Origin: Thermoproteota archaeon
GTDB lineage: Archaea; Korarchaeota; Korarchaeia; Korarchaeales; Korarchaeaceae
Length of the DNA stretch: 64,000 nt
Reading direction: 5' to 3'
Assembly: GCA_026986575.1 (NCBI GenBank)
Contig: JALSOH010000006.1
Location: 372,001-436,000, forward strand
This document shows, in pieces, positions 5,430 to 58,257 of this stretch. The first letter of the stretch is position 1. Every line of letters begins with the position of its first letter. The notes under the pieces are model-generated. The model worked only from the letters and a program-made list of their open reading frames with translations, was not told the origin of the DNA and ran no database searches. Position numbers and translations under genes: made by a program.

Positions 5430-8002
5430 GATATCCTCCTCCTGATTACCAGAATCCCAATTAGAGAGACAGCCATTATCGCGACCACCATCTCTACATC
5501 CCAAGATCTCGGGCGATCCCTCCTCAAAACACGACATGAAGGTCTGAAGAGTTTTATCTCGCCCCTGTTACTTCCAACATTCCCGATTACTACGTTAGAT
5601 ACGTTTCTGTGGGACGTAAGTTTAAGATGTGTACTAGTTTGATTAAACAAGCTTCCTTCCCTAGGAGCCGTGACGTTTAACTCTATCTGGCCGAACAAGG
5701 TCCCTCCTCCAGTCAAATAAGCCCATCGAACATGCCAGATGCCTTCCTCATGAACGACGAAGTGAAAGGTAGTTTTATTTCTGACTGGGACCTCCCTGAT
5801 AGTGGTGCCACTTGGATCCACGACCCATACACTCCCCCTGGCTCCGTAGGGAGTCGCGGTAACGCTCACATCGTCTCCCACCTCTGGATTGCTCGGCACA
5901 ACCGTAACGGAGAACCTCTCTTTTTGGCTCGTGGTATTTGATGTATTGTTTTCCGGTCCTGAGTTTCCCGTGTCAGTGTGAAGTTGAGATGCTTCAGGCA
6001 ATTCCTCGTGAGCTGATTCTTGGTATTTCTCGGTCCTAAATTCAACATTAGGCTTGGTATGGTCCTCAGATCGATCCTTGACGTCCTCCCCTTCTTGAAC
6101 ATCGTTAACGTCCTCCCTATTATTCCCAGAGTCCTCCTCATAGCTGCTCCCTGTTGTGGTATTCAGGGAATCGTTTGATCCATCGCCTGATCCGTTATCA
6201 TCCTCATGAGATCCACTGCCTTCATCTTGGCCCACATTCCTGACCACCAAAACCGCAGAGTCCCTAGCCACCGCCCCATCCATATCCACTGCCTCAATGG
6301 AGATCTCAATAGAATCCTTCCCCTCAGGCACTGTGAACTCGACATCCTCAGCCGAACTTGACCCGGGCAATTGAATGGCCCTCCCATCGATGTAAAGGGT
6401 CGTTCTGAGTCCCGGAGCATCATCCGAGTAAATCGCGCTAACGATTACGGTCTCCCCGGGAGATGCTTCGCTTGGATTTACGCTGACATCCACTGTGGGA
6501 GGTCTGTTCTCCAGCACCACATCCCATCTCTCGGAGGCCTCCCCAAAAGGACTAGCCACGTACGCAGATACCACATAGTCGCCAGACCTCACATCTCTTG
6601 GGACAACTACCCTGTAATCCCCGGCCCCACTTATTGAGATCCTCTCCCCCATGAAGTCCAGATAACCATTGACATCATCTCCTTGGACATATATGGTATA
6701 CTCCTCACCCCTGTGAATCGTACGGGGAATTTCCCCCGATATCGAGGGAGGTACTCCCACGGTGATACTTTCCGTTGAGGATGAAGATGCACCGTCCCTA
6801 TCGACCGCATTGGCGGTGAAAGCGAGCTCTCCAGAGAATCCTTCAGGGATCCTAAACTCGAGGGAACCTCCATTCTCATCCATATTGAACTCGTTCCTGA
6901 GCCCCTCTCCCGTCACTGTCAAACGAACGTCCGTGCCCGGAGAATCATCCTCCACCGAGACTTGAACGTTTACGGTGTCTCCGGGAATCGCCACATTCTT
7001 GTCCAATGATATCTCAACCTGAGGGGGTATATTCAAGATCTCTAAGGTCCAACTAGCGGAGTTGCTTCCATCCACATCCTCCACGGTAACCTCCATCGGG
7101 TGCTGGCCAGCGTCGATGTCCCTAGGAACCTCTATTAGGTTCTCTCCCCTTTCCAGCGCGTACTCCCTCCTGAAGGCGGTTAAGACGCCCGTCAAGGTAT
7201 CTCCGTCATTCTCGGAAACAATTACCCTGAGCACGTCCCCTCTGTAGACTTGTGTTGGTGGGGTGAAGCTTACGGAGGGTGGCTCACCTAGCACCCTCAC
7301 CGCGGAGTCCTTCCTAGACACGGCAGTGACTCCGCTATAGGATTTGGTGACGGTGAAGGTGATCTCCCTGGTACCTGAGGGCGAGTCCACAAAGTTAACA
7401 CCCACCTTCGACCTGTAGAGCCCCCTAGATACCCTTCTGAGCCTGTAGGTAGACGATCCCAGCTTGGCAGTGACGGATAACTCGCCCACACCATCGTCCA
7501 CATCGTTCAGTCCGTCCACCTCTAGGGTGATCTCGTCCCTCTTGCTGATCTCCCTAGGAGTTATGGATGGGGACCATGAGGGAGGTATGTACACGATGTA
7601 AGAGCTCCCCATATCCTTGCTGTCAGCGTCGGTGGCTCCATTAACCCTGCAGGTCACCTTTATAGCGAGGCTAGCCCGCTCTCCGGCCTTCGTGTGCACG
7701 TAAATCCTGACGCTTCCGCTCCTTGTACTCATAGAAATCGTCTTGGAAAGAACATCTATGTTGCTTCCAGAGGCCTCAACGCTTAGTTGAGTGTTCTGAG
7801 GATCGCTCGTCGTCAGATCAAACCAGAATTTTACGATGATCTCGCCCGGCTTGGTCGCTTGGGGGAGTCTACTCGGAGAGGTTCTAGTTATCTCTATACT
7901 ACAATCATCCAAAGCGAGCGCCCTTCTCTGAATCGAAACGGAGAAGACTATTAACATGAGGAGGAACGGAATCCAATTATGTCGGTTATATTGGAGCCTC
8001 AT
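5426..8002 (-). CDS. Large cell-surface protein with repeated Ig/cadherin-like domains
   Basis: An 858-residue surface protein. I choose the ATG at 8002, preceded by GGTG, although a GTG one codon earlier is possible. An N-terminal signal peptide (IPFLLMLIVFSVSIQRRALA) leads into at least four tandem beta-sandwich repeats marked by recurring phrases such as PPSVSFTPP, IPPQVEIS, VPPSISGEIPR and RPPTVDVSV. A low-complexity acidic, Ser/Asn-rich linker (about residues 600-680) follows, then one more beta domain, a membrane segment (VEMVVAIMAVSLIGILVI) and an Arg tail. It is the first gene of the run leading to the TadA/TadC genes and is probably displayed by, or attached to, that apparatus. The exact function is unknown. 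Confidence 0.75.
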   Translation of the reverse strand: MRLQYNRHNWIPFLLMLIVFSVSIQRRALALDDCSIEITRTSPSRLPQATKPGEIIVKFWFDLTTSDPQNTQLSVEASGSNIDVLSKTISMSTRSGSVRIYVHTKAGERASLAIKVTCRVNGATDADSKDMGSSYIVYIPPSWSPSITPREISKRDEITLEVDGLNDVDDGVGELSVTAKLGSSTYRLRRVSRGLYRSKVGVNFVDSPSGTREITFTVTKSYSGVTAVSRKDSAVRVLGEPPSVSFTPPTQVYRGDVLRVIVSENDGDTLTGVLTAFRREYALERGENLIEVPRDIDAGQHPMEVTVEDVDGSNSASWTLEILNIPPQVEISLDKNVAIPGDTVNVQVSVEDDSPGTDVRLTVTGEGLRNEFNMDENGGSLEFRIPEGFSGELAFTANAVDRDGASSSSTESITVGVPPSISGEIPRTIHRGEEYTIYVQGDDVNGYLDFMGERISISGAGDYRVVVPRDVRSGDYVVSAYVASPFGEASERWDVVLENRPPTVDVSVNPSEASPGETVIVSAIYSDDAPGLRTTLYIDGRAIQLPGSSSAEDVEFTVPEGKDSIEISIEAVDMDGAVARDSAVLVVRNVGQDEGSGSHEDDNGSGDGSNDSLNTTTGSSYEEDSGNNREDVNDVQEGEDVKDRSEDHTKPNVEFRTEKYQESAHEELPEASQLHTDTGNSGPENNTSNTTSQKERFSVTVVPSNPEVGDDVSVTATPYGARGSVWVVDPSGTTIREVPVRNKTTFHFVVHEEGIWHVRWAYLTGGGTLFGQIELNVTAPREGSLFNQTSTHLKLTSHRNVSNVVIGNVGSNRGEIKLFRPSCRVLRRDRPRSWDVEMVVAIMAVSLIGILVIRRRIS

Positions 8003-29442: not shown

Positions 29443-30759
29443 ATGAACTTGCGTTCCCTGTTAGAGCGCTTGACTAATGAGGAAGACGCATCTATACGTG
29501 TGGCCATTAATGAGTCCTCCGATCCTCCCGTGATAAGGAGAAGCTATTCCCAAATTTTCTATGGAAAGGATCTCCCACCTCAACCGCCTGTGGAGGTAAT
29601 TAAAGCGGGGGACCTGCGGGATGCCGACCTGTTCGTTGCGGTCGACTTGGTAATCTCCCTGACGGGAGCTTCCTCCCCCGATGAGGTCAAATCTGGAGCT
29701 GAATCTCTCCTTAGAGAACTAGCTAGGAAGGTAAGGTTGAGGGCGGAGGACTCGAAGAAGAGCAATGTGGCGCTGGCCCTGCCAGAGAGGCGCCACTTGG
29801 AGGAGGTTAAGGGAAAGTGGACCAAGTGGGTGTGGAAGCGAACTGCCTACGACGGGACCCCAGCTCCAGACTTCAATGGCTGGGTCAGGGACTTGATCTC
29901 TTTGGCAGATGCAATAAGGGGGGAGGGAGTGAGGGTCGTCTTCATGGCTGGCGAGTCCGGCAAGGTTCTGGAGGAGATGGGATACGAGGTCGTCAGTGTG
30001 AGCATCGAGGAGACGCTGCCTAAGCTGGGCTACCCTAGGGATCCCAGCGTAGCGTGGTCCGAGCAGCCGATCCTCATGAACATGGCGCTGGACATAAGGG
30101 GGGGCGAAGAAGAGGTCGCTAGATCCTTCTTTCAGAAGAATGGCTTGACTCCGGTGTTCAGGCCTAGGTGGTGGCGTAATGGTGAGATACTCGTCAGAGC
30201 CAAGGCCGAGGGAGGGAACTTCATACTGGTCGAGGGGGAGGGAGGGAAACGAGCCTTGTTCACCGGAATTGGAGTTAGGGGGAGTAACGTGGCCGCTCCC
30301 AAATTACTCCAAGAGTTCCTCATCTCGCAGGGCCTGAATATCGAGGTTTACGGGGTTCCCCTACCCGGCTACATACGGGATTGGCGAACAGGGGCCGTCC
30401 ATCTCGACGTTGTGATGATGCACGCAGGTCCCGTGACTTTCGTGAGCCCGGGCAGGATGGGGTTCTACTCACTTGTTAAGTACGGCGAGTCCCTCGAGAT
30501 AGTAGAGTTGGGTCAAGTGTTCCGTGACTTGGGCATAACAGTGGACGAGATACCTGCTGAGGGCAGCGAGATCACCATGGTGAACGGTCTCAACTTGGGG
30601 AACGGGAAGATAGTGGTGGATTCCTTCAACAGGGACGCGAACAGGTACTTGGAGAGGGAGTGGGGGCTAGACCTCATTGAGGTGAGCATACCCCAGATAG
30701 AGGCCGGCGGCGGAGGTGCGAGGTGCGCTACTAGGGAGTTCTACGTATCACGCGAGTGA
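29443..30759 (+). CDS. Arginine deiminase-like amidinotransferase-superfamily protein
   Basis: A 438-residue guanidine-modifying enzyme. The superfamily signatures are present: GYPRDPSVAW, EGGNFILVEGEG, the catalytic His in TGAVHLDVVMM, and the C-terminal Gly-rich loop with catalytic Cys, EAGGGGARCATREF. It might be an arginine deiminase or another amidinohydrolase; agmatine deiminase is less likely from length. The last codons (YVSRE then stop) come directly after a 36-base perfect repeat that recurs at 34514-34549, where the same reading frame instead ends YK then stop. The gene's 3' end therefore seems to have been replaced when the AT-rich island inserted. The catalytic Cys is retained. 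Confidence 0.85.
   Translation: MNLRSLLERLTNEEDASIRVAINESSDPPVIRRSYSQIFYGKDLPPQPPVEVIKAGDLRDADLFVAVDLVISLTGASSPDEVKSGAESLLRELARKVRLRAEDSKKSNVALALPERRHLEEVKGKWTKWVWKRTAYDGTPAPDFNGWVRDLISLADAIRGEGVRVVFMAGESGKVLEEMGYEVVSVSIEETLPKLGYPRDPSVAWSEQPILMNMALDIRGGEEEVARSFFQKNGLTPVFRPRWWRNGEILVRAKAEGGNFILVEGEGGKRALFTGIGVRGSNVAAPKLLQEFLISQGLNIEVYGVPLPGYIRDWRTGAVHLDVVMMHAGPVTFVSPGRMGFYSLVKYGESLEIVELGQVFRDLGITVDEIPAEGSEITMVNGLNLGNGKIVVDSFNRDANRYLEREWGLDLIEVSIPQIEAGGGGARCATREFYVSRE
30693..30744 (+). repeat. Left copy of a 52-bp direct repeat flanking the AT-rich island
   Basis: This stretch, inside the 3' end of the amidinotransferase gene, matches 34498-34549 at 48 of 52 bases; the last 36 (30709-30744) are identical. 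All four differences fall on third codon positions and are synonymous, so both copies encode QIEAGGGGARCATREFY. The repeat covers the catalytic Cys codon. Confidence 0.9.
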
Positions 30760-30886
30760 GCTATCGTAAAACCCCTCAAGGAACTCATTGCTTTTCTAGA
30801 TGGGAAGAATCGGGCTACTTTACCGCTGATTAGATATACTCAATAGTTCAGCCGTTATTCCGACCCATACCGTAGGAAAAGGGGAA

Positions 30887-32257
30887 TTAGAGAGGAACGT
30901 CGCACAGGTATCTCAACATAAACAGAGAGAGCAGCAAGATGCAAGTATCTATCAGCAGGAAGGCAGAGTACAGCGCACCTACATCCACCACGAACCCGTT
31001 CAGTGATTCCAAGAAGACCATGATGAACACGGACTCGGCCACTACCATGATGGGGGTGAGCTTTAACCACCCAATGGACTGGAAGGTCCACATGGATTCT
31101 CTCTTCGGTAGCAGCCTGCATATCAGGAGATTATACAGGGAGGAGAAGGATATCACGGTAAAGATGAATACTGTGAGGTAGTAGACCAAGTTCCCTCCTG
31201 AGATCAGTGAAAATACGACGATAGGGATGTTTATCGCGAGACATATGATCACGTAAAGGGCGTACTTCGACAGGGAGACCTGTAACTTGGTTAAAGGCAG
31301 GATATAGAGGAGGGAAGAGCCAGAGCCCTCCAAGGAGTACAACCAGATTGTGAAGAGAGGGAGTATCACACCCAGCTCCAAGAGGGAAGCCAAGGTCAGG
31401 TTGAGCAACGCCGCGTTTGAACTTACTTCAGAAGTGTAGATCGTGATGATAGAGTGTGGAAATACGGAAAATAGTATTAAAGCCAGTATCCAAGGTCTCC
31501 TCCTGATCAAGATCAACTCCTTCTTTAGGAGAGTCATGTGAGGCAATTCTGCGTACTCATTCCCGGCAGGAGCGACATTAGGAAACTCATGCAATCTCCC
31601 TATTACTCTACCGAAGGCCATTGCAGTTAAGTAGAAATATCCTATCAGAAGTATACTTCTCTCTAAGATAGACGAGCTAAAGAGAATCGTAAGAAGAGGA
31701 CCTAAATACGTAAAAAGAATAATAGAACCTACCCAACTTAAGGTGATTAACCACGGAACTCTCCTAAATGAAATTTCCACGCAGGCCATTCCCAGTATAG
31801 TACCTAATACAGCTAGAAAACTACTAAGCCATACTAGGATGAAGATAGCATTAAACCGGAAGTCGAGGAGAGTATAGTAGGGGGGGATTAAGAGCGGGGA
31901 GAGGGCAAGACCACCCCAAAGTAAATGCGCAATAATTACTGCTGCAATGACAGTTCTAGGCCTAATAGGCAACATCAGTATTGGCATCAGAGACTTAGTG
32001 TCCTTGATAGATCTGTAATTGATAATAGACAGTGTAAAGAACGAAAATATATAAACCAGTTGACTAACTTTAATGTAAGATTGAATACTATCTCCATCTC
32101 TAACCAATATTATGAGGAAGAAGGACATTATGATAGAGGCTATAAATAGCAAAATATTAGACAATAGAATCCTAACTAAACTAATAGAATTACCACTTCT
32201 ATAGCTTCCTTCGCGGATTATTATCAAAGCTATCCGGAGAGGCAGAGGAATTCTCAA
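30887..32257 (-). CDS. Polytopic membrane protein resembling ABC-2 type permeases
   Basis: A 456-residue protein with about ten to twelve membrane segments, starting with a TTG at 32257. Its C-terminal half aligns by eye with the membrane protein at 42849-44327: KKELILIRRRPW against LREMRIVLRTPR, and LLYILPLTKLQVSLSKY against ALYLLPLTRSRVAAIK. The family looks like the permease half of an ABC-2 exporter, but no ATPase is adjacent. Base composition shifts within the gene: the part nearest the left repeat is less AT-rich than the rest. Possible role: export or immunity for the peptide encoded at 33091-33345 (inference). Confidence 0.65.
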   Translation of the reverse strand: MRIPLPLRIALIIIREGSYRSGNSISLVRILLSNILLFIASIIMSFFLIILVRDGDSIQSYIKVSQLVYIFSFFTLSIINYRSIKDTKSLMPILMLPIRPRTVIAAVIIAHLLWGGLALSPLLIPPYYTLLDFRFNAIFILVWLSSFLAVLGTILGMACVEISFRRVPWLITLSWVGSIILFTYLGPLLTILFSSSILERSILLIGYFYLTAMAFGRVIGRLHEFPNVAPAGNEYAELPHMTLLKKELILIRRRPWILALILFSVFPHSIITIYTSEVSSNAALLNLTLASLLELGVILPLFTIWLYSLEGSGSSLLYILPLTKLQVSLSKYALYVIICLAINIPIVVFSLISGGNLVYYLTVFIFTVISFSSLYNLLICRLLPKRESMWTFQSIGWLKLTPIMVVAESVFIMVFLESLNGFVVDVGALYSAFLLIDTCILLLSLFMLRYLCDVPL

Positions 32258-32359
32258 GGTTCCATACCCTAAAGATTTACTCGTCTACTTAAAAATTAAT
32301 GGACATTAGTATGACTTGCATTCATCATATCATGGCTGAATAATTTATTAGTTAAAAAG

Positions 32360-32986
32360 TTAATCCAATGTGAAAATAACAACGTTATATATATGGATAT
32401 ATAGCAAAATAGCTAAGGAAAAGATAGCTGAAGATGCACACCTTATATCGAATTTTCCGGATAATTTATATAAGGAACATAGCCAGAAAAAGAAAATTAT
32501 CAAGTCTATTGCTATAAACAGATAAGGGCTAATGATAAGATCAAATTCGGACCTCAATAATATAAAAAAAGAAGGTATTACAAATTCAATTAGTCTAAGT
32601 AGAAAGACCGAACTCTCTCCTATCTGAAGAAATATCAAATAAAATCCGAAGCTTAGGAGCGTGTCTCTTAATTTTATTGTATGTTCCTTACAGAAAGTCG
32701 TAATGGTTAAGTAAAATATCTCAGTAACAAGGAATAGGACGAATAAACTAGCTAACCCATGTGCAAGAAAACCTGCCGCGATCACTAAGAATAATCCTCC
32801 AAGAAAATTCTGAAGAAGCACCGTAAATTCTCTGAGGAGATACATTGTCAAACTTGTAGTATACAATAGAGATGAGATCAGTATAGTTGATAGTAGAATG
32901 ATAACCTTTCGATGAGGGCTAACATTATCTAGAAAAAGACAGAAACCCCAAACTCTATTCAATATCCTGATTACAAGGAATTTCAC
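32360..32986 (-). CDS. Hypothetical membrane protein of the AT-rich island
   Basis: A 208-residue protein, almost wholly hydrophobic, with five or six predicted membrane segments. It starts at a GTG (32986) seven bases after a strong AAAGGAGG ribosome-binding site, which supports translation. Family not recognised; the general layout is like Yip1-type membrane proteins. It is divergent from the small peptide gene, with about 100 bases of very AT-rich promoter DNA between. Confidence 0.6.
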   Translation of the reverse strand: MKFLVIRILNRVWGFCLFLDNVSPHRKVIILLSTILISSLLYTTSLTMYLLREFTVLLQNFLGGLFLVIAAGFLAHGLASLFVLFLVTEIFYLTITTFCKEHTIKLRDTLLSFGFYLIFLQIGESSVFLLRLIEFVIPSFFILLRSEFDLIISPYLFIAIDLIIFFFWLCSLYKLSGKFDIRCASSAIFSLAILLYIHIYNVVIFTLD

Positions 32987-33090
32987 AAGAATGCCTCCTT
33001 TAGACTCATAATACCATGTTCTCTGACCGGTGCGTTGATCTTAAGTAAATTTTTATATATTTGCGCCCTAATTATAAATGTGGTGGTTCC

Positions 33091-33345
33091 GTGGATCAGA
33101 GGAAAATAGTTTCAGTAATCCTGATGTTGCAAATCATATTTCTTGCGGCGCCCTTTTGGATGAGCGGAAAAGCAGGAATGATATGGGGAGCTATAGCATA
33201 TCACGTCCATACACATTATCATAACCATCTAGCTTCGCACGTAGCTTTACATATGGCTATCACTCATATCATGATATACACCTTAGCAGGGTCTGGGTTT
33301 GGACCCATCGGAGCGTTAGCTGGCTTTCTAATAGGAATAGCATAA
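33091..33345 (+). CDS. Small hydrophobic His- and Gly-rich peptide, possible bacteriocin precursor
   Basis: An 84-residue peptide. The GTG at 33091 follows GGTGG by four bases and a TATA box (TTTTTATATA) at about 33049-33058. A hydrophobic N-terminal 23 residues are followed by a segment with eight histidines (residues 38-59, YHVHTHYHNHLASH onward; His 46, 50 and 54 fall on one helix face) and a Gly/Ala-rich end (GSGFGPIGALAGFLIGIA). There is no Cys. Size, hydrophobicity and the adjacent SpoIIM/DUF95 gene recall precursors of circular bacteriocins. Alternatives: a small metal-binding membrane peptide or a holin-like protein. Confidence 0.6.
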   Translation: MDQRKIVSVILMLQIIFLAAPFWMSGKAGMIWGAIAYHVHTHYHNHLASHVALHMAITHIMIYTLAGSGFGPIGALAGFLIGIA

Positions 33346-33385
33346 ACCTAATTCTCTAACATTTTTATATCTTAGGTGAGGAGAC

Positions 33386-33796
33386 ATGTTATCCAAAAAG
33401 CGAAATCTTGTTGGTATTATGATATTTTTCATACTCATGACAATTTTCTTCGGAGTCTTTTCATATCAGTTGTGGATCTCTGAACCGGAGGATTTCCTCT
33501 TATATTTCGCTGTAGGATTTACCTCTAGCATTCTTATATTCCTACTTTTCTCTGGAGATGTTGATCCTTTGGATATGTCTTGGAGGGGAATAGATGTAAA
33601 AGATAGGAGAACTCTCCTAAAGTATCTAATCTTAATAGGCCTAGTAGGTGCACTGCTAGGATCAGCACTCCCTCATGCTCTTGGATATCAGAATGAATTT
33701 CTGTATATAGCAGCTTGGTATACAGTAGGGCTGGGTGTAGCAGTTGCTTCGCTCTTGATATTGCCCATACTCAGCTATTTTCATAACAGAAAATAA
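33386..33796 (+). CDS. Four-helix small membrane protein of the AT-rich island
   Basis: A 136-residue membrane protein with four predicted helices and a short cytoplasmic loop (DPLDMSWRGIDVKDRRTLLKY). It has its own TATA-like ATTTTTATATC and a ribosome-binding site AGGTGAGGAG four bases before the ATG. Family not recognised. By position it could be an immunity or assembly factor for the peptide encoded just upstream, which is inference only. Confidence 0.6.
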   Translation: MLSKKRNLVGIMIFFILMTIFFGVFSYQLWISEPEDFLLYFAVGFTSSILIFLLFSGDVDPLDMSWRGIDVKDRRTLLKYLILIGLVGALLGSALPHALGYQNEFLYIAAWYTVGLGVAVASLLILPILSYFHNRK

Positions 33797-33811
33797 AGTA
33801 GAAACACGGAG

Positions 33812-34435
33812 GTGGATGTTATAAATATCGGTGAAAAAGGTATTTGGATAGCAGCTCTTCTCCTGTATTTTGTGGGGTTCGGCTTGTCTCTTCTGGACAA
33901 CTCCACCCTGCAACATCCTACTACTCTCCGATGGAAATACATTGACTTAAAACTAAATCGCGAATATTATTTTATAATTACCTATGATTTTTTTAAAATT
34001 TGTCGAATGGATGACTACTCAAAAATTAAACTCATTTTGATAAACAATTTAGAGAGTGTTGTATTGACTGTGATGGGAGGAGTTGCTCTCTCGATACCGA
34101 CCGTCGTATCTACACTGTACAATGGATATCTTTTTGGCTCTTTTATCGGAGGTGCGCTTGCGAGTGGGCTAAGTTTAATCGAAATAATAAAACTAACTGT
34201 GTTTCATGGATTTATAGAGATAGCAGGATTCTTGATGGCGACTGTTGCAGGAATGCGTATCTCACTTTTATTAAAAGATTTATTGATATCATTACCTGAA
34301 GATCAAGATTTCTCTAAGAAGATGCGATTAAAAATTATAAGTATTATGAAACTCTTCCTATACTCTCTAATTTTTATTACTATAGCGGGATTGATAGAGG
34401 TGTACATCTCAATAGACCTAATCCTCTGCGGATAA
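33812..34435 (+). CDS. SpoIIM/DUF95-family membrane protein
   Basis: A 207-residue protein with a GTG start preceded by CGGAG. The core has the SpoIIM/DUF95 signatures in order: INNLESVVLTVMGG (77-90), LYNGYLFGSFIGG (102-114) and FHGFIEIAGFLMATVAG (131-147), within about five membrane segments. DUF95 proteins are a hallmark of circular bacteriocin clusters, where they are needed for maturation or secretion, but the family also occurs elsewhere in archaea. It lies 15 bases after the four-helix protein gene, suggesting a transcript 33386-34435. Confidence 0.82.
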   Translation: MDVINIGEKGIWIAALLLYFVGFGLSLLDNSTLQHPTTLRWKYIDLKLNREYYFIITYDFFKICRMDDYSKIKLILINNLESVVLTVMGGVALSIPTVVSTLYNGYLFGSFIGGALASGLSLIEIIKLTVFHGFIEIAGFLMATVAGMRISLLLKDLLISLPEDQDFSKKMRLKIISIMKLFLYSLIFITIAGLIEVYISIDLILCG

Positions 34436-34497
34436 CTCACCTATATTAATTTTAGGCAAATAATCAGGAGTTTCACTTACCTGCTATTTTGAAACAG

Positions 34498-34555
34498 CCA
34501 AATTGAGGCTGGAGGCGGAGGTGCGAGGTGCGCTACTAGGGAGTTCTACAAATGA
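34498..34555 (+). repeat. Right copy of the 52-bp repeat with a relic amidinotransferase C-terminus
   Basis: Bases 34498-34549 repeat 30693-30744 (48 of 52 identical; 34514-34549 perfect). In frame from 34499 it encodes QIEAGGGGARCATREFY followed by K and a TGA stop at 34553-34555. This is probably the original chromosomal end of the amidinotransferase gene, left behind after the island inserted. There is no start codon or body upstream, so it is not a functional gene. Confidence 0.85.
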
Positions 34556-34601
34556 AAATTCGTTAAACTTATATTATCACGGGGTTATATCGGCCGGTGG
34601 G

Positions 34602-35159
34602 ATGTTGGTCAGGCCCATGACCTTGTACGCCTTGGCCTCTTCCTTCGGAGGAGAGTCCATGGCCCACATGCGCTACATCCTCTTCGCCGAGAAGGCGGAG
34701 AGGGAAGGCTTTCCCAACGTCGCCAGATTGTTCAGGGCGATCGCCTATGCTGAGAGGGTCCACGCGAACAACCACTTCAACGCACTCTCCGAACTCAAGG
34801 GAGACCTGAAGGTGGTGGCCGGAGCGACCTTCGGCCCCGGGAGCACCTCCAAGAACTTGGAGCTTGCAATTATGGGGGAGGAATACGAGGTAGAGGAAAT
34901 GTATCCTGCATACATATCGGTGGCCGAGCTTCAGGGGGAGAGGAGAGCTGCTACAAGCTTCAAATGGGCCTTGGAGGCTGAGAAAATACATGCTGAGCTG
35001 TTCAGAGAGGCGAAGGATTATGTGGACAGGGGAGAGGATTACCCATTGGATGGGAAGATCTGGATATGTCCCGTATGCGGGCATACTCACGTGGGCCCGG
35101 AACCTCCGGAGAGATGCCCGGTCTGCGGGGCGCCTAGGGATAGGTACGAGGGTTTCTGA
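34602..35159 (+). CDS. Rubrerythrin
   Basis: A 185-residue rubrerythrin-type peroxidase. The four-helix diiron domain shows ALASSFGGESMAHMRYILFAEKAEREG, RLFRAIAYAERVHANNH and EEMYPAYISVAELQGE; the C-terminal rubredoxin-like domain has two CPVCG knuckles (IWICPVCGHTH and ERCPVCGAPRD). I start it at the ATG at 34602, preceded by GGTGGG and a TATA-like TTATATTAT about 25-30 bases upstream. An open frame to 34503 would run into the repeat. It detoxifies peroxide in anaerobes. Confidence 0.92.
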   Translation: MLVRPMTLYALASSFGGESMAHMRYILFAEKAEREGFPNVARLFRAIAYAERVHANNHFNALSELKGDLKVVAGATFGPGSTSKNLELAIMGEEYEVEEMYPAYISVAELQGERRAATSFKWALEAEKIHAELFREAKDYVDRGEDYPLDGKIWICPVCGHTHVGPEPPERCPVCGAPRDRYEGF

Positions 35160-40889: not shown

Positions 40890-42779
40890 TCAACCCCGCT
40901 TGGTACTGAGCAGGGAGCGCAAGAAGTCGAAGGGCCTGTAGGCCCGCCTCACCATCTCCACATACCTCTGCGCATCATATCCCCCTCTTCCCATCTCCAC
41001 CGGATAGGGAAAGGTCGCCTCAATGTACCTAATCGATCCACCGCTCGCATTGATCAAGGAGGCTGCTCTCCAGTGGCTGATCTCCCTACTATAGGGAGGA
41101 TCAATCCTCTTCTCCATTACTAGGAGCTCTTCAGGCACCTTGTAACGTATCAGGGAGTTCTCAGTATCTTCAAACATCCTTTGAACCTTCATAAGAGCCG
41201 ATAGTAGGGTACTGGGATCTCCTGCCTCTCCTAACAGGTCAAGCGATCTCTCCACGAGGTGCCTGAGCAGAGGAGGCATGTCCCTCCTGACGATCCCCTT
41301 GGCCTTTATGCCACCCTCCACCAACCTCCCCAAGTATCTAGAGGGCACCCCCAACTCACCTCCCTCCTCCGGCGGGAAGAACACCAGCCAGCTGTAAACA
41401 GAATCGACCCTTATCTTGTATCCCAGCTCGTTCTCTATCTCCTCAGCTAGAGAATGGGGATCGGGGGTCCTCACGAAGAGGGAATCCACCAGGAAGTGGA
41501 TCACCTCACCCCTCCTAGATGCCACTTCCATAGCTCTGAATGCGAGATGCCTCGCCATGGCGGTGACGCTCTCATATGATTCTATGCTACCGAACCTCGC
41601 GTTTCTATACCCTAGATATCCGAAGCAGGCCACCAATACCCATTTTATCGCTTCTAACCTGTCAGAATCGCCCATTGACTTGTATAACCTCTTCCTTCTC
41701 ACTAGTTCGCTTACTGCCTCCGATACCAATCCTCTCCTCTCCCTGCATATCCTGTGGCCCACCCCAGGGATCTCGAACCAGTCAGAGCATGAGGGATCGT
41801 TTACTGTCTCCGGGCTTATGTTCTCCTGACTTATTATTGATGGGAAGAAGGAGTCGAAGTCCAGCTGGGCTACGCCCCAGTAGATCCCCGCTTTGGGAGT
41901 GAGAATGAGGCCTCCCCTATCTGCTCTCACCAGCTCCCCGATGCTCTTCCATCCCTCTACCCTCACGGCCACGTTCGGTACCAAGTATTTCCTCTCCATG
42001 GCCTTGAAGGCTTCCACGCTGGTAAGCACCTTCCCTATCGTGTAGCCGGACGCCAGCCTGATCGGAGCATGAGAGAGGGAGCTCCACTCCATGAGTCCCC
42101 TCACGGTAACGCCCAGCGGTAAGGAGTCTACTAGCACGCCTCTCTTCAAGGCAGATCTGACTCCGGGAATCGAGAGGGCTAGCTTCCTCCACTTAGAGCC
42201 CTCCAGAACAATCACATGAGGCGAGTAAGATTCGACGATATCACCCGCCTCTCTCGGGCCCAGCGTGATGAGATCACCGTTAAGGGAGACCTCCACCTCC
42301 CTGACATACCTCCAAGAGGGAACGTTGGGAGGGCCGGCCCATCCCCTGAAACCCATCCTCACGTACTTGGGCTCGGGTATATCTCCACCGCACGAGGAGG
42401 GGATGAGGCCAGATCTCCACAGGACCTGCTGAAGCTGAGGTGGAAAGGTGTTCCACAGCTCCACCTTGTCGCGAAGAGCCCTAAAAACGCGCCTGTAGAG
42501 GCTTGGCTCTACTTCGATGACGGCCACATGGAGCGAGCTCCTGTAAAGTGGGGGTTTGATCCATTCCTCCACCCTCATGTCTAGATCATGGGCATCAACG
42601 AACTCCTCCAGCCACCTCTCATAAGAGGCGTATATCTCTAACGAGATCCTCCTCCTTTCAATCCTACGCCCATCCCCGTTGACGAAGAGGAGCTCCAATT
42701 CGTCACCTAACTTGGCGTCCAGCAGCCACTCGCACACATTCCGCAGTCGGCAGTCATAATTCAAAGGGAACGTTTTCAC
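40890..42779 (-). CDS. Divergent family B DNA polymerase
   Basis: A 629-residue protein with the polymerase part of family B. Motif A is QLDFDSFFPSIISQENISPE (about 305-324, catalytic Asp 307 present). A VGHRICRERRGLVSE..RRKRLYK region follows. Motif B is weakened (IKWVLVACFGYLGY, without the usual Asn), and motif C is IHFLVDSLFV where the first Asp of DTD is Leu but the second, catalytic one (Asp 432) is kept. The N-terminal 300 residues are short and lack an obvious exonuclease I motif. It is shorter than replicative PolB (about 780 or more residues). This resembles archaeal PolB2-type paralogues with altered motifs; activity is uncertain. Confidence 0.8.
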   Translation of the reverse strand: MKTFPLNYDCRLRNVCEWLLDAKLGDELELLFVNGDGRRIERRRISLEIYASYERWLEEFVDAHDLDMRVEEWIKPPLYRSSLHVAVIEVEPSLYRRVFRALRDKVELWNTFPPQLQQVLWRSGLIPSSCGGDIPEPKYVRMGFRGWAGPPNVPSWRYVREVEVSLNGDLITLGPREAGDIVESYSPHVIVLEGSKWRKLALSIPGVRSALKRGVLVDSLPLGVTVRGLMEWSSLSHAPIRLASGYTIGKVLTSVEAFKAMERKYLVPNVAVRVEGWKSIGELVRADRGGLILTPKAGIYWGVAQLDFDSFFPSIISQENISPETVNDPSCSDWFEIPGVGHRICRERRGLVSEAVSELVRRKRLYKSMGDSDRLEAIKWVLVACFGYLGYRNARFGSIESYESVTAMARHLAFRAMEVASRRGEVIHFLVDSLFVRTPDPHSLAEEIENELGYKIRVDSVYSWLVFFPPEEGGELGVPSRYLGRLVEGGIKAKGIVRRDMPPLLRHLVERSLDLLGEAGDPSTLLSALMKVQRMFEDTENSLIRYKVPEELLVMEKRIDPPYSREISHWRAASLINASGGSIRYIEATFPYPVEMGRGGYDAQRYVEMVRRAYRPFDFLRSLLSTKRG

Positions 42780-51473: not shown

Positions 51474-53498
51474 TCAACCACAAGGGCGATTTAACTCTTT
51501 CTCATTTATTATCTCCAGAGCCCGTTCAACAGCTCCCATTCCATATTTCCCATCAGGTGCCCTCTCGTAGGCTACCACTCTATCTGACTCCCCCTCTGGA
51601 ACTATGAAGTCCAGATCCTGGGATGCAGGTTGTAGATTGGTTTCCAGTGAAATGAACTCGTCGCTCCACTTGAATCCCCTCCCGAACCTCCTGTCAGCGA
51701 ATATGAAATAGATAGCTGGACTAGTGAATTCTCTCCTGTAATTGTCCAGCAGGGGAAGTTGGATCTCGAACTTCTCCTTCCACTTTGCGTAAATGCCAAC
51801 CACTCCGATGGATAGGAGCCACTTAGGCAGTTTAGCTGATCTCCACCTAAGATCGTATCTCCCCTTGCCAGTTCTGACCCTGACAACTGGGTTCGGTTTT
51901 GATCCAGATCTCTCCCTCATTTCGTAGACGAGGGACTCCATGAGATCAGAGTACCATACCTTGAGCTCGTGTTGTTTCGATATCGCCATAACCGTGGACG
52001 CCACCTTCATGAGAGGTAGTGATAGCTCCTCACCGTCATCTGATGCCGAACTAACCCTTACTGTGGAGGTCAGATAGATTTTAGGGACTTCAAACCGCTG
52101 ATCTCCTCTTTCTATAGCCGTGAACTTCCTGTGAAATTCTTTGTCAGCGCAAGGGGAGATGTAAGAGGTGAAGAAATCAGCTCTTTTGCTCTTAGCCACT
52201 TCTAAAAAGGGAGGCAGGTTTTCCTTTCCATTCCTCAGGTTCAAACCATTTGAAAAGACACTTGAGATCTCTCTCCTCGCCCATGGCAGGTCCACATTGA
52301 AGAAGATCCCATGGGAGCCGTATCTCCTAGCTAGCCTGCCCAGCCTCTGGACCACTTTCATAACGCTCATTGAGTTCACCGAGACCATGGAGGCGGGATA
52401 CACGTCCAGATCCTCAAGCTCTATTCCCACTTCACCCACACTGGTCATCAAGATCGTGTCGGCCCCTTCTATCCGCTCAATATATCTCTCCCACAGCTTC
52501 CTAGGCATCTGAGAGTGGAGAATGACGGACTCCCCTCCTAATCTCTCTTGGAGGGATACAAGCATGTTAACGCTGTCAGCGTAGATTATCCGGGGAGCCT
52601 CCAACTCATTAACCAGTTCAACCAATCCCTCGAAATCGGAACGACCAAACGAGATGAGCTTATCCCCGGCCTCTCTATCTACTAGCTCCAGATTCCTCCT
52701 CTCTAGCGGGACAGACCTATTGATCACTCTAGTTCCAAACAGGTCCTCGAGCGAGCGAAGAGCCCTCTCTATGGAAAGAGGATCCATCGTGGCGCTTATG
52801 AAGAGGAGGAAAGTAGGCCCGCTCAGGGGTGCCGATATCTTCCATCTACCTATTTCTAGGAGAAGTGTCAGGAGCCTCACGAAGCTCTTGCCCGTGTAGA
52901 AGTGGGGCTCATCTATTATGTAGAGGTCCACCTCCGCAAGCCCTGAGATCAAGTTGAAAGGGGTTATCCTATCTCCTATCCCCAAGCTAGATGATCTTCT
53001 GACTGCTAGCGATGCCAGCATCTGCGGATTGGTGAGAACTAACCTCATCTCCTCCTTCAACTTGGAGAAAGCTCTCATCACTCTTTCAGCCTTGTCCTCA
53101 CGATTCATATCCCCTCTTATCTCGATGACCTCCACATCGCCTAGGGCATCCCTCATACCCCTATAGAGATCCAACGATCTCCCTCCCATCTGAGAGGCTA
53201 GGAACTTGGTAGGCGCTATGTAGACCGAGTTTAACTTGCTCAATCCCAATGAGAGCTGCTTTGCCACGGCTGCAGCGGCGATTAGGGAAAGGTGGCTCTT
53301 TCCAGCCCCAGTGTCTGCTGACACGTAGAGGGGGATGACGGAGTTGCTTTCCCTGACCTCCTCGGACAGTCTCAAGATTTCTGCCAGCACCTCATGCTGT
53401 GACTTGGTTAGAGAGAGGCTCAATCCCCCGTAATTTCTCTCGAGAAACTCCCTTCTCAGCGGAGGCTCCCAGTAGGCTCCCAACTCCCTGTAGGCCAA
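51474..53498 (-). CDS. cas3: CRISPR-associated helicase Cas3' (type I-D, no HD domain)
   Basis: A 674-residue superfamily 2 helicase that would unwind target DNA after Cascade binding. Motifs: Walker A ADTGAGKSHLSLIA, DEAD-like VDLYIIDEPHFYTG, motif III LFISATMDP, and motif VI VVQRLGRLARRYG. No HD nuclease domain is present, as expected for type I-D, where the HD lies on Cas10d. It is the last gene of the operon and its frame overlaps csc1 by 43 bases. The GC-rich element follows directly. Confidence 0.85.
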   Translation of the reverse strand: MAYRELGAYWEPPLRREFLERNYGGLSLSLTKSQHEVLAEILRLSEEVRESNSVIPLYVSADTGAGKSHLSLIAAAAVAKQLSLGLSKLNSVYIAPTKFLASQMGGRSLDLYRGMRDALGDVEVIEIRGDMNREDKAERVMRAFSKLKEEMRLVLTNPQMLASLAVRRSSSLGIGDRITPFNLISGLAEVDLYIIDEPHFYTGKSFVRLLTLLLEIGRWKISAPLSGPTFLLFISATMDPLSIERALRSLEDLFGTRVINRSVPLERRNLELVDREAGDKLISFGRSDFEGLVELVNELEAPRIIYADSVNMLVSLQERLGGESVILHSQMPRKLWERYIERIEGADTILMTSVGEVGIELEDLDVYPASMVSVNSMSVMKVVQRLGRLARRYGSHGIFFNVDLPWARREISSVFSNGLNLRNGKENLPPFLEVAKSKRADFFTSYISPCADKEFHRKFTAIERGDQRFEVPKIYLTSTVRVSSASDDGEELSLPLMKVASTVMAISKQHELKVWYSDLMESLVYEMRERSGSKPNPVVRVRTGKGRYDLRWRSAKLPKWLLSIGVVGIYAKWKEKFEIQLPLLDNYRREFTSPAIYFIFADRRFGRGFKWSDEFISLETNLQPASQDLDFIVPEGESDRVVAYERAPDGKYGMGAVERALEIINEKELNRPCG

Positions 53499-54364
53499 GA
53501 GAGGTCCCCCTCAGTCACTAAGTAAGTTTCACCATCCATCACGGCGTAGTACCCAGATGAAGCTTCGAACTCTCCCCAAACAGCAGGTATCACCTCGGCC
53601 TTGGGTTGATACCCCTTCATCCTCTGGAAGATCTTCATCGTTCCAACGGGTCTGAGACCGTTCTCCTCGAGGCACTCGCTCACACCCTCCCCACACAAGA
53701 GCGGTTGTATGAGCCTACCCCTTACCTTATCGCCGACCCTCACGAGTTTGACCTTCTTCACCACAATGGGATGCATCTTGCCCCTGAAGGAGTGCTTGGC
53801 ACCGAATCCGAATTCCCTCATGGCGCTCTCCAATAAAATGAGGGCCCTCTCCAGTTCGTTCCTATCGTATGATAGTAGGGAGAATCTCCAGATGGCTCCA
53901 GGTGCCCAGAAGTAGTGTACGGTGTAGTTGATTACCCTCCTAGTGAGGTCTGAGTCAAGCCCGAATAACTGGTACCCGTACACCTTTAAGGGACCCATCC
54001 CAGCCCTCTTTATCGTGCCTAATGCCGTCGCAGTTCCATCCAAGATTACGTTGAAGTCCTCCCTGATCACCTTGCTTGATCTGAGCATGACCCCATCAGT
54101 CACGCCAACACGGGGTAACTTGCGCGACAGGAGTGTGCTATATTCCATGCCTATCTCGCTTTTGGAATTCACCCACCTGTTGTAGTAAGAGTAGAAGTTC
54201 TCCCCTTGGACGCTCATCACGACCCTCAGCATGGCTCCGGCCACTGCCGTCCTATAAATGAATCCCCCAGGCCTGAAGACATTCACCTTCATGGTGGTCT
54301 GGGTGGAGCACACGGGCTCGACATTAACGGCCCTTATGAAATAGAGATAGGGCTGGGAGGTCAA
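53456..54364 (-). CDS. csc1: Csc1/Cas5-like subunit of type I-D Cascade
   Basis: A 302-residue RAMP-like protein between csc2 and cas3', the usual position of csc1 (Cas5d-type). It overlaps csc2 by 4 bases. Visible: early glycine turn FRPGGFIYRTAVAGAMLR and a KAKHSF-like basic loop FGFGAKHSFRGKMHP. It would hold the 5' end of the crRNA. It is longer than typical Csc1 (about 220-260) and sequence similarity is weak by eye, so the assignment relies on gene order. Confidence 0.62.
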   Translation of the reverse strand: MTSQPYLYFIRAVNVEPVCSTQTTMKVNVFRPGGFIYRTAVAGAMLRVVMSVQGENFYSYYNRWVNSKSEIGMEYSTLLSRKLPRVGVTDGVMLRSSKVIREDFNVILDGTATALGTIKRAGMGPLKVYGYQLFGLDSDLTRRVINYTVHYFWAPGAIWRFSLLSYDRNELERALILLESAMREFGFGAKHSFRGKMHPIVVKKVKLVRVGDKVRGRLIQPLLCGEGVSECLEENGLRPVGTMKIFQRMKGYQPKAEVIPAVWGEFEASSGYYAVMDGETYLVTEGDLSWPTGSWEPTGSLR

Positions 54365-55677
54365 CCGATTCCCCCCTCTCTCCCCCTTTTCTTCTGCTGT
54401 TGGGGAGCGAGATCCTTTATTGCATCATTATAGTTATTCCTGGCCCTCTTCGGCTTTCCCAGAAAATCTATAACCGAGGCAGCGTGTTCCACGAGCAGCC
54501 TGAACGCGTCATCCCTCTCCAAGAGGGACATCCCCTCACTCATGTAGTCTTCGAGCCTTTTTATCGCCTTCTCCCCTACATACCTTACCAGCACCGACTT
54601 CTCTCCTAACTTAGCCACGCATATTCCCCTACAATCGCCTACGACGTCGAAGAATGTGGCCTTATATCCAGCTTCTGGGTCCCTTACATCTATGGGCATC
54701 GACGGAGGCGGTGGATTTGCTAGATAACCCTCTACTGAGAAGACCTCATCCACGACTATCAGAGGGATACCCTCCTTCACACAGTGATCCCAAACGCCGG
54801 CGCCCGATGAGGTCTTGGCCCCCTTCCTGACATCTTTCACGAGATGCTCGTAGGCGAGCATGGCCAGCTCCAGTTTGGTAGGATTGAAGAGAGTTGTCTT
54901 GAAATATCCAGGCCCTTTGAACATGTACTCTACGAAGAACATCATTTCCTCACTAGTTCCCCCCTCCTGAGTCGTGCCAGCCCTAGGAACCCTGTTCCTC
55001 ACGATCTTCTCCAGTAGTGAGGGCTCGAGTATCCGACTGCCGGCAGGCAGGCCCAGCTCCTTCGCAGCTGACTTCACCGTGAAGTAAGTCTTGAAGTCGG
55101 TCTCCTTGTACTTCTTCTCCCAGTTGACCGGAACGGCTCCCTGCGTGGCGGTTGAGGCGGCAGCCCCCTCAGCTATGCAAGCTGGGCAAACCCCGCATGG
55201 ATCAAGAGGGGTGCAAGAGGCCATCTTCATCACCACATTCCAAAGAGCCCTCTTAGCTGCGTCGTCCTCTAGAATATCATTGGCGACCTCCTCCACTATC
55301 TTCAAGTACTCCTTGGCCTCCCTCCCACTCTTGTCATTGGCTATGGCATCTAGAAATGGGTGCATGATCCTTCGGAGCGTCTCCCTGAAGAAGCTCTCCC
55401 TGACGTAGTTGAACTTGGTGGCCCTTATCCTCGCCCTAGAATCGAACTCGTACTTTCCGTCCTTCTCGTAGAGGAAGGGTTCCAGATCTGTTACTGCTTC
55501 GTTTATTTCCAACCTCTCATTACCTGAAAAGGCCCTATCGAACTGTATGCATCCCCATACTCTCACAGCCGGTATGGAAGGGAGTAACCCTATCTCCCTT
55601 CCGAGGCCGGACGGTACCTTCGAGAGGATGTCCGGCAACTCGCCGGGATCGCTCACAACCTCCCACTTGAACTCCAT
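54361..55677 (-). CDS. csc2: Csc2/Cas7-type backbone subunit of type I-D Cascade
   Basis: A 438-residue protein; Csc2 forms the crRNA-binding filament. A zinc-binding motif CTPLDPCGVCPACIAEG (Cys 155, 161, 164, 167) matches the zinc insertion known for archaeal Csc2. The glycine-containing RAMP-like segments (PRAGTTQEGGTSEEMMFFVE, GAGVWDHCVKEG) fit Cas7. The C-terminal basic tail (QQQKKRGREGG) is unusual. The gene lies 17 bases after the small gene 55695-56273. Confidence 0.75.
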   Translation of the reverse strand: MEFKWEVVSDPGELPDILSKVPSGLGREIGLLPSIPAVRVWGCIQFDRAFSGNERLEINEAVTDLEPFLYEKDGKYEFDSRARIRATKFNYVRESFFRETLRRIMHPFLDAIANDKSGREAKEYLKIVEEVANDILEDDAAKRALWNVVMKMASCTPLDPCGVCPACIAEGAAASTATQGAVPVNWEKKYKETDFKTYFTVKSAAKELGLPAGSRILEPSLLEKIVRNRVPRAGTTQEGGTSEEMMFFVEYMFKGPGYFKTTLFNPTKLELAMLAYEHLVKDVRKGAKTSSGAGVWDHCVKEGIPLIVVDEVFSVEGYLANPPPPSMPIDVRDPEAGYKATFFDVVGDCRGICVAKLGEKSVLVRYVGEKAIKRLEDYMSEGMSLLERDDAFRLLVEHAASVIDFLGKPKRARNNYNDAIKDLAPQQQKKRGREGGIG

Positions 55678-55694
55678 AAAACCACCTCCTTATA

Positions 55695-56273
55695 CTAATC
55701 ACTTAAACCGGCCTGAAACGGGAGAGGAACAGGAGAGGAGTTAGAACCAGCTTGACTCTGACTGGAACATCCCAAGCCCCTCTTGGAGCTGTCAAACAGA
55801 GAACTGAGCCTACCGTCCCAGCCGAAGTGCACGTAGATGTATGAGACGTCTCTAACCCCCATGATCCCTATCACCACCTTCCTCGCCCTTTCAGATCGAT
55901 TTGATAGCTCCTTCACGAGAACATCAGTTAACTTAGCCAGCGACTTTTCCGCCACGCAGCTGATCGACCCCCTCAGCTTTGACCTTATCTTATCCATGGC
56001 GTAATTCAGGAACTTACCAGAGTAGTTCTTCAAGGTCCTTACTGGGTCTAGCTTGGGATCAACGCAGGAGGCGAATCTCATGAAGAGTGAAAATTTCTCC
56101 GTCTGACTGCTGTCACTGCCCAGCAGGTTGGCGCTTCTTGACACCAAGAAGAGCAAGGCTCCCAGCGTAAAGGATATCTCCTCGCTTTCCAACTCTCCCA
56201 AGGATTTGAGCCTCCTCTCCAGCTCCTCGAACGAGGACGGGATGATCTCAACCCCACTTAGGCCCTCACCCAT
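55695..56273 (-). CDS. Unrecognised cas-operon protein, candidate stand-alone small subunit
   Basis: A 192-residue mainly helical protein between cas10d and csc2; its start overlaps cas10d by 8 bases. In most type I-D systems the small subunit (Cas11d) is translated from within cas10d. Here a separate helical gene of about that size range (N-terminal helical part ELERRLKSLGELESEEISFT, LGALLFLVSRSANLLG) may do that job. There is no HTH or nuclease motif. The last 30 residues are Ser/Gln-rich and probably disordered. Confidence 0.5.
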   Translation of the reverse strand: MGEGLSGVEIIPSSFEELERRLKSLGELESEEISFTLGALLFLVSRSANLLGSDSSQTEKFSLFMRFASCVDPKLDPVRTLKNYSGKFLNYAMDKIRSKLRGSISCVAEKSLAKLTDVLVKELSNRSERARKVVIGIMGVRDVSYIYVHFGWDGRLSSLFDSSKRGLGCSSQSQAGSNSSPVPLPFQAGLSD

Positions 56274-58257
56274 TTTTGTTCAGCACCTCCCTGACCATCC
56301 TCAATGCCCCCAGCTCCCGAGACTCTCGCAAGTATTCCACGAGATCCATGAACTTCTCGAGCGTCAACCCCTTGGGAATCTTACCATCCATCTCCTTCAG
56401 TAGGATGGCCCCTATCTGAGCCCTGTCACCTTCCAACTTATGAACCATCCCTTCAGGCTTCAATCCCAGGTTTCTGAGCTTCTTGATGGATTTCCCTATT
56501 CTCTCCAGCAATTCAACGTAGTCCTCCGGATCCCACACCCCCCTCACGAGGATGTGGTCCCAGACCTGTCCCGGAGACATGGGCCCGTTCCCGATTCTCA
56601 GCCCCCATTCGAACTTGTAAGTCACGCGACCACAGGGAAGAACCACCTTCTCCTCCCCTAGCCCTTCCATCAAATCTGAGAGGAGAGAATTTAGCTCCCC
56701 CAAGAGATCCTCTCCTCTCGATTTCATGAGGGAAACCATGACGCTCAATCCGTACCTCCTGAAATCCCTCGAAGTGAAGGATGATCTGAGTTTAGAGAGC
56801 ATAAGTTCCCTGAGGTAGTAGGAGAATACCTCGACAACTAGGGGGTCCGTGTCCCCCGAGCAAGGAGGTGAAGTGATCTCCATGATCCTCTCGGTCCCGT
56901 AGAGAACGAAGGTCACTGGGACACCGCTATCATAGGAGCTCCTGCTGAAGAGCCAGAGGCATGTCGGGCAGAGGGGTCTATCGTTATGCTCAAGTCTGCC
57001 CTTGTAGTTGTAAATGCTATCGGATACGGCCCTCAGGTAACCTAGCTGCATGCTCTTCTCGAGAGTTACCATTTCACCGCTTAATCCCCTTGAGACTCCC
57101 TCACTATCGCCTAGATATTCCCTCAGCTCCTTTGTGTCCAGTACTTTAGCCATCGGCCTTCCGCAGGAGTAGCAGGGAAAGCCTTTATCCGTAGGAACAG
57201 GCCTGAAACCAGAGTGCAAGGCGTCTACCAGGGCATCCCTGAGCCTTACATCGAAGTTTTCCTTCCCCGCCACAAGGTTTATCTTCCAGTGACGGAGCGT
57301 TACTAGGTCCTCGAGTATATTGTTGGGAACGTTACTGAACTCCTTTCTCAAATTGAATTCCTCTTCAGGAGCTCCCAACCAGACGGCTACAATGATTGAG
57401 CTATTATCTTCTACCACCGAGCCCCTCAGGAGGGATAAACCGCCCCACTCGGTTCTCACTATTTCCTTGTCAACGATCTTCCTCAATGAATCATAGAAAC
57501 CTAAGAAAGCAGATACAACTGCCGTGGGCCTGGCTTCAAATAATGCGCGGTTGAGGGATAGAGAGATGACATGTATCGCCGGCTCACCCACCATCTGCTG
57601 GAGTGATCTTATCATCTCCACAATCTCGGTCACATCCGATTTGAAGGAGGGACCTCCCTCCCAAGCTGATGCTATGGAGTCAGCAACCCTCAAGCTCATG
57701 GAGTGGGCCTTGGCTAGGGGGATGGGATCTGGAAGGGGACATCCGATCTCATCAAAGAAGGAACCCAATGCCTCGGCAACCATTTCTATCTTCTCGGGCG
57801 TCCTCATTCCCTCATGAGATGCGTTAGCAGCTCTCAACACGTTCTCAATTATGGAGCCTTCCACCTCCCTCAGGAGGTCCCGTACCGAGCTCGGTAGGAT
57901 CGCCATCTCCTCATCCAGCAAGGATGACATGAGCAACCTTAGGGCCTCCTTATTCCTCTCCACATCCAAATTGCCGTGTCCATCGAACCTTCTCATTGCA
58001 TCCATATCTCTGACCATGTCCTCCGGCACAAACAGCTTATCGTAATCGTGGTAAAGGCTCTCCAAGAAGACTAGATCGCTGTAGGAATCCAGCAGCTCTT
58101 GGCCCATACCGCATTCCTTCGCGTGACGGGCGATCACGTATTGAGAGGGAAGGTTAAATATGGTTCTGAGGGTGTATACAGCTATCCCATGCTCGTAGAA
58201 GGTCTGGGTATTCCTTCCCCACTTACCCAGATTGGCCCTAATCATCGCCGGGGGCAT
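56266..58257 (-). CDS. cas10d: Cas10d (Csc3) large subunit with N-terminal HD nuclease
   Basis: A 663-residue large subunit. HD site LESLYHDYDKLF (His 70, Asp 71) with a further His-rich helix (NASHEG). Zinc-type pairs CYSCG (362, 365) and LCPTC (430, 433) are typical of Cas10-like zinc ribbons. No GGDD cyclase motif, as in type I-D. First gene of the effector operon; TATA-like CTTATAAT at about 58279-58286 lies 20-30 bases before the ATG. Confidence 0.8.
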   Translation of the reverse strand: MPPAMIRANLGKWGRNTQTFYEHGIAVYTLRTIFNLPSQYVIARHAKECGMGQELLDSYSDLVFLESLYHDYDKLFVPEDMVRDMDAMRRFDGHGNLDVERNKEALRLLMSSLLDEEMAILPSSVRDLLREVEGSIIENVLRAANASHEGMRTPEKIEMVAEALGSFFDEIGCPLPDPIPLAKAHSMSLRVADSIASAWEGGPSFKSDVTEIVEMIRSLQQMVGEPAIHVISLSLNRALFEARPTAVVSAFLGFYDSLRKIVDKEIVRTEWGGLSLLRGSVVEDNSSIIVAVWLGAPEEEFNLRKEFSNVPNNILEDLVTLRHWKINLVAGKENFDVRLRDALVDALHSGFRPVPTDKGFPCYSCGRPMAKVLDTKELREYLGDSEGVSRGLSGEMVTLEKSMQLGYLRAVSDSIYNYKGRLEHNDRPLCPTCLWLFSRSSYDSGVPVTFVLYGTERIMEITSPPCSGDTDPLVVEVFSYYLRELMLSKLRSSFTSRDFRRYGLSVMVSLMKSRGEDLLGELNSLLSDLMEGLGEEKVVLPCGRVTYKFEWGLRIGNGPMSPGQVWDHILVRGVWDPEDYVELLERIGKSIKKLRNLGLKPEGMVHKLEGDRAQIGAILLKEMDGKIPKGLTLEKFMDLVEYLRESRELGALRMVREVLNKNG

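Follow-up and report, generated by a model that had tools for sequence, protein, structure and literature searches.

A low-GC island at the 3′ end of an arginine-deiminase-like gene

The window, a 64,000-nucleotide stretch on contig C6 of a 1.9-Mb archaeal genome (G000, analysed alongside a phylum sample of 29 genomes), contains a 3.8-kb island whose exact extent is ~30745–34497 and whose GC fraction is 0.387, against at least 0.498 in every other 3.75-kb segment of the window. Five genes are arranged in two divergent arms. The minus-strand arm comprises the genes for a 456-aa multi-transmembrane (TM) protein (30887–32257) and a 208-aa membrane protein (32360–32986), and the plus strand carries the genes for an 84-aa precursor-like peptide (33091–33345), a 136-aa membrane protein (33386–33796) and a short SpoIIM/DUF95 protein of 207 aa (33812–34435). 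All five genes claimed in the first-pass annotation are real; the two-armed layout, the flanking repeat and the empty sites described below go beyond it.

On either side of the island lies one copy of a direct repeat of 52 bp; the two copies are identical at 92% of positions and share an exact 36-bp core. The left, attL-like copy spans 30693–30744 (exact core 30709–30744) and the right, attR-like copy 34498–34549 (exact core 34514–34549). The repeat corresponds to the 3′ end of an arginine-deiminase-like (ADI) gene, the ...GGGGARCATREFY motif included, and the right copy is a second ADI 3′ end. The insertion target is the ADI gene itself (29443–30759, plus strand; PF02274, E 1.4e-9), whose last four codons (VSRE) are supplied by the element; the ADI of relatives terminates in FYV*, FYI* or FYK*. 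On the other side lies a rubrerythrin gene (34503–35159, plus strand), with its true start 3′ of the right repeat, which directly adjoins ADI in relatives without the island. Four of these relatives (G008, G012, G014 and G018) retain an empty site, with near-identical downstream DNA: their ADI end continues directly into the DNA found here after the right repeat, which is why we conclude that the element exchanged the final codons of ADI for its own and kept the gene whole. The island is a precise insertion of a foreign, laterally moved cassette.

The two repeat copies differ at four positions, all synonymous in the ADI frame, and a 25-nt stretch of the right copy (CAAATTGAGGCTGGAGGCGGAGGTG) also occurs unchanged in the ADI of G011; the gene end on the element therefore probably stems from a different lineage. 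That G011 might harbour a second insertion in this place was considered and rejected, because the candidate (L036:317–612, on contig C93 of that genome) is a broken ADI copy beside an M32 carboxypeptidase gene. G011 also has an intact ADI gene elsewhere, 60% identical to the one in the window.

No match to a recombinase family was obtained for any of the five island proteins; two PF00589 genes (tyrosine recombinases) are present elsewhere in the same genome. The element may have entered by site-specific integration in trans, may have lost an integrase, or may derive from a circle that recombined homologously. The att core has no match in viral contigs, plasmid and phage searches returned no match, and PADLOC found nothing meaningful. 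Gene-end direct repeats, a target gene left whole, foreign GC content and empty sites are all shared with integrative elements that target gene 3′ ends; unlike these, the island measures only 3.8 kb, carries membrane-protein cargo, has no integrase of its own and sits in a protein gene rather than a tRNA gene. The 3′ end of ADI is an unusual insertion site for so small a mobile cassette.

The island proteins and the 84-aa peptide

The 456-aa protein has 13 predicted TM segments and resembles a diverged ABC-2/12TM_1-like permease without an ATPase. Its match to 12TM_1 (PF09847) is sub-threshold (E 0.0026; 17.4 bits, cut-off 33.2), and 13 further genomes from the phylum encode distant relatives of ~500 aa (best E 1.5e-10). 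It can be regarded as a distant relative of the archaeal 12TM_1/ABC-2-type permeases but is shorter, falls below the Pfam cut-off and has no partner ATPase in the island. The 208-aa protein, with ~6 predicted TM segments, has no Pfam, PHROG or PADLOC match and no relative among the 29 genomes. The description of two large membrane proteins, one of them exporter-like, holds, as does the reported absence of an ABC ATPase from the island.

The small four-helix membrane protein of the first-pass annotation is the 136-aa product, with four predicted TM segments and a ribosome-binding site (GGTGAGGAG) preceding its gene. No homologue was found in the 26–29 genomes of the class or phylum or in profile databases, and we consider it a candidate for the role that a small, cationic and hydrophobic immunity protein plays in circular bacteriocin clusters. 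The SpoIIM/DUF95 assignment of its neighbour is clear (PF01944, E 1.1e-17; 64.9 bits, cut-off 26.9), and this protein is related to the SpoIIM proteins of the other cassettes described below (hhalign E 1e-6 to 3e-5). Scans of genomes and of viral contigs with the window's SpoIIM gave no match.

The 84-aa peptide is read from a GTG start at 33091, with a TATA-like stretch (TTTTTATATAT) ~30 bp upstream. It agrees with its earlier description as a Cys-free peptide with a hydrophobic leader, a Gly/Ala-rich core and eight histidines: the leader would occupy approximately residues 1–24, with the hydrophobic segment in residues 5–22 and a putative cleavage site, and the hydrophobic ~60-aa core is 32% Gly+Ala and includes the His-rich stretch HVHTHYHNH..H...H....H. 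No relatives were found in the 29 genomes and no match in viral contigs, so the case for this peptide is one of architecture. A weak match at L007 (E 0.0096) contains two internal stops and was rejected as a homologue. Neither Pfam nor NCBIfam gave a match, and thus no known bacteriocin family model fits; a sequence comparison with the PDB returned chance matches only. Homology to a membrane subunit, which had been named as a finding that would count against a bacteriocin-like precursor, was sought in profile databases and PDB sequences, and none was found. The predicted structure of the peptide shows three core helices at a mean pLDDT of 67 with no significant PDB match, and speaks neither for nor against the saposin-like helical bundle looked for in a circular bacteriocin; it is one of two models in all, both of low confidence and without a structural match.

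SpoIIM cassettes and leader-type peptides across the phylum

Three further types of SpoIIM cassette, with sequence-unrelated peptides, were identified in the genus, each in two to three species and with conserved gene order. Type A consists of a ~103-aa peptide, SpoIIM, a ~190-aa TM protein, an ABC ATPase and two permeases, and is found in G000 (C4:149.5 kb), G014 and G009. It is complete in the first two (L033:6463–9974 on G000 C4; L076:876–4390 in G014), just downstream of apparent rRNA genes. A genome scan with the type A SpoIIM gave matches in two already known genomes only, and type A peptides have no match in viral contigs. Type B combines a hydrophobic 81-aa peptide with an M48 protease, SpoIIM and a 199-aa TM protein in G000 (C4:164 kb; L034:6695–9034), G014 (L077:4223–6562) and G009, where it is truncated by a contig end. 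The M48 zinc protease (E 3e-22) adjoins SpoIIM in three or four loci and is a candidate for leader removal from SpoIIM peptides. Type C, with an 86–91-aa peptide, one or more small TM proteins, SpoIIM and a ~235-aa TM protein, occurs in G000 (contig C1), G017 and G009; the G000 locus (L032) lies among short PIN-domain toxin/antitoxin-like ORFs at 199–600, 3641–4075 and 7422–7811. An apparently tandem-duplicated, partly decayed SpoIIM cassette with no peptide gene left was also noted in G009 (L074:3395–6051, contig C18), consisting of two 113-aa TM genes, a truncated SpoIIM-like ORF, SpoIIM and M48.

As with the window's peptide, no bacteriocin model matched the peptides of types A, B and C. 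The cores of types B (G000 vs G014: dN 0.036, dS 0.414) and C (G000 vs G017: dN 0, dS 0.188; leader dN 0.05) show strong purifying selection. For type A, the G000 and G014 peptides differ too little for dN/dS to be informative; with the G009 peptide as reference, 40 of the 76 core positions and 10 of the 26 leader positions are invariant across the three genomes, and the core ends, VW.GTYVRT and FTIGFT.G, are among the most conserved parts.

The peptides of the four types, including the one in the window, display no sequence likeness between types. Homology of the window and type A peptides was rejected as unproven (shuffle p ~0.02; hhalign probability 0.3%), and the idea that helper TM proteins form a single family across types was likewise not supported. 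Since no relationship between types is detectable for peptides or helper proteins and the SpoIIM proteins are related by hhalign, SpoIIM is the one constant partner. The sister loci suggest that archaea possess an entire repertoire of cassettes of this kind.

SpoIIM matches are present in each of the 17 more complete genomes of the phylum and almost invariably fall in one long reading frame (~475–577 aa). This long archaeal form has the SpoIIM domain in common with the cassette proteins but is usually single-copy and has no adjacent peptide, whereas the cassette form is short (170–235 aa) and patchy, with four genes in G000, five in G009, two in G014, one in G017 and weak matches in three distant genomes. 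Of the 15 short SpoIIM genes, 9 have a neighbouring leader-type peptide according to an automatic filter, and a tenth, in the type A locus L033 of G000, was missed by the filter because of its start region and was added by hand; the filter found such a peptide beside none of 21 long SpoIIM genes and at 2 of 140 background positions. The associated p value of 2e-9 is indicative only, because the filter thresholds were set after some of these peptides had been seen and the count of nine includes G009 C57b, a locus cut by a contig end whose peptide belongs to the neighbouring cassette. No peptide belonging to the locus itself could be recognized at five short SpoIIM loci (G009 C38, G009 C18, G023, G025 and G026). 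It had been proposed that a SpoIIM occurring mostly without such peptides in relatives would speak against a link; in the one phylum searched in depth, the opposite was seen for the short genes.

Comparison with circular bacteriocin clusters

Bacterial circular bacteriocin clusters encode a precursor, a DUF95/SpoIIM protein, an ABC ATPase with a membrane protein, and a small hydrophobic immunity protein, the leaders of the precursors being 2–48 aa long (PMC6131525). SpoIIM has been called class-defining for these clusters (PMC13289728). Yip1 membrane proteins are common partners, and M48 and M50 peptidases occur in a few clusters (PMC8659200). The island resembles such clusters in its SpoIIM/DUF95 protein and several TM proteins, and its 84-aa peptide, with a leader and a core of ~60 aa, is built like the precursors of the enterocin AS-48, circularin A, carnocyclin A and gassericin A types, which combine a leader with a hydrophobic core of ~60–70 aa. 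The sister types add to the likeness, type A with an ABC ATPase and permeases and type B with an M48 protease. In contrast to the bacterial clusters, the island is archaeal, encodes no ATPase, specifies a His-rich core and is inserted at a gene 3′ end; none of the archaeal peptides matches a known bacteriocin family. We found no description of SpoIIM peptide cassettes in archaea in the papers examined, although a 2019 survey of archaeal antimicrobial peptides (10.1128/mBio.00715-19) may mention them.

The first-pass annotation had read the island as a circular-bacteriocin-like cassette. SpoIIM, the leader-type peptide and their recurrent pairing uphold the likeness, and the lack of an ATPase (present in type A) and of a match to any known bacteriocin model is the reason why we do not file the window's cassette as a circular bacteriocin cluster; that it works like one is the best reading. 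We therefore favor, at slightly better than even odds (about 0.55), a laterally acquired cassette whose product is a membrane-active peptide, made and exported as circular bacteriocins are, with both the ring and the activity putative. The data show the insertion, the gene content and the link between SpoIIM and peptides that are conserved in the sister cassettes; we infer how each protein acts, and likewise that the leader is removed and that the peptide is exported, cyclized and antimicrobial. In this reading, the cassette recombined into the chromosome within the end of ADI and replaced its last codons, so that the gene stays whole. The hydrophobic leader would guide the precursor to the membrane and would then be removed. 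SpoIIM may act in maturation, possibly in head-to-tail joining of the core, and in export, where the permease-like 456-aa protein could assist together with an ATPase acting in trans, which the genome's own type A cassette might provide, and the 136-aa TM protein may confer immunity.

The peptide could instead be a linear, leader-cleaved pore-forming or signalling peptide that never forms a ring, with SpoIIM and the TM proteins serving export or immunity. Every peptide found resembles a signal sequence followed by a hydrophobic core, and SpoIIM systems have no known cyclase (PMC8659200), yet the ends of the type A core are highly conserved, as expected if they must meet, and bacterial SpoIIM is tied to circular bacteriocins (PMC13289728, PMC6131525), which makes this alternative unlikely. 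We judge it quite improbable that SpoIIM and the permease-like protein form a membrane complex in which the peptide serves as a small subunit, structural or metal-binding, without any role in antagonism. Its eight histidines could bind Zn, Ni, Cu or heme, the gene content of the island is membrane-only and the long housekeeping SpoIIM is widespread in archaea, but the cores of the other peptide types contain only zero to three histidines, the cassettes are patchy, that of the window was laterally inserted, and the genes of a subunit would be conserved together with its complex. A selfish cassette stabilizing the inserted DNA by a toxin and antitoxin or a holin-like peptide would account for the patchy, mobile, low-GC insertion and the membrane-active look of the peptide, but is very improbable given that processing and export account for the SpoIIM, M48 and ABC partners of the sister cassettes better than a toxin-antitoxin pair does.

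Returning to the preferred bacteriocin-like reading, a broader version of it is more doubtful: that the phylum owns at least four unrelated SpoIIM-dependent families of ribosomal peptides, which share only SpoIIM, make use of an optional M48 protease or ABC exporter, have spread in part as small integrase-less cassettes, and yield head-to-tail circular archaeocins. Should these families make such archaeocins, the maturation of circular peptides would have SpoIIM as its universal core in archaea and bacteria alike. No enzyme for leader loss or ring closure of circular bacteriocins is identified in the literature examined; as the only protein common to four unrelated peptide families, SpoIIM would be pointed to as the constant part, and the M48 protease beside it in type B offers a concrete candidate for leader removal and, independently and in archaea, fits the report of such peptidases in bacterial clusters. 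If true, thermostable circular peptides from vent archaea would extend known archaeal antagonism.

Two other regions of the window were noted, both on the minus strand. A helicase gene (DEAD/Helicase_C) followed in one run by four ORFs without a Pfam match (51474–58257) may represent a defence or CRISPR-type operon, and a 629-aa homologue of family-B DNA polymerases with a partial Pfam domain match (40890–42779) is possibly an inactive paralogue.
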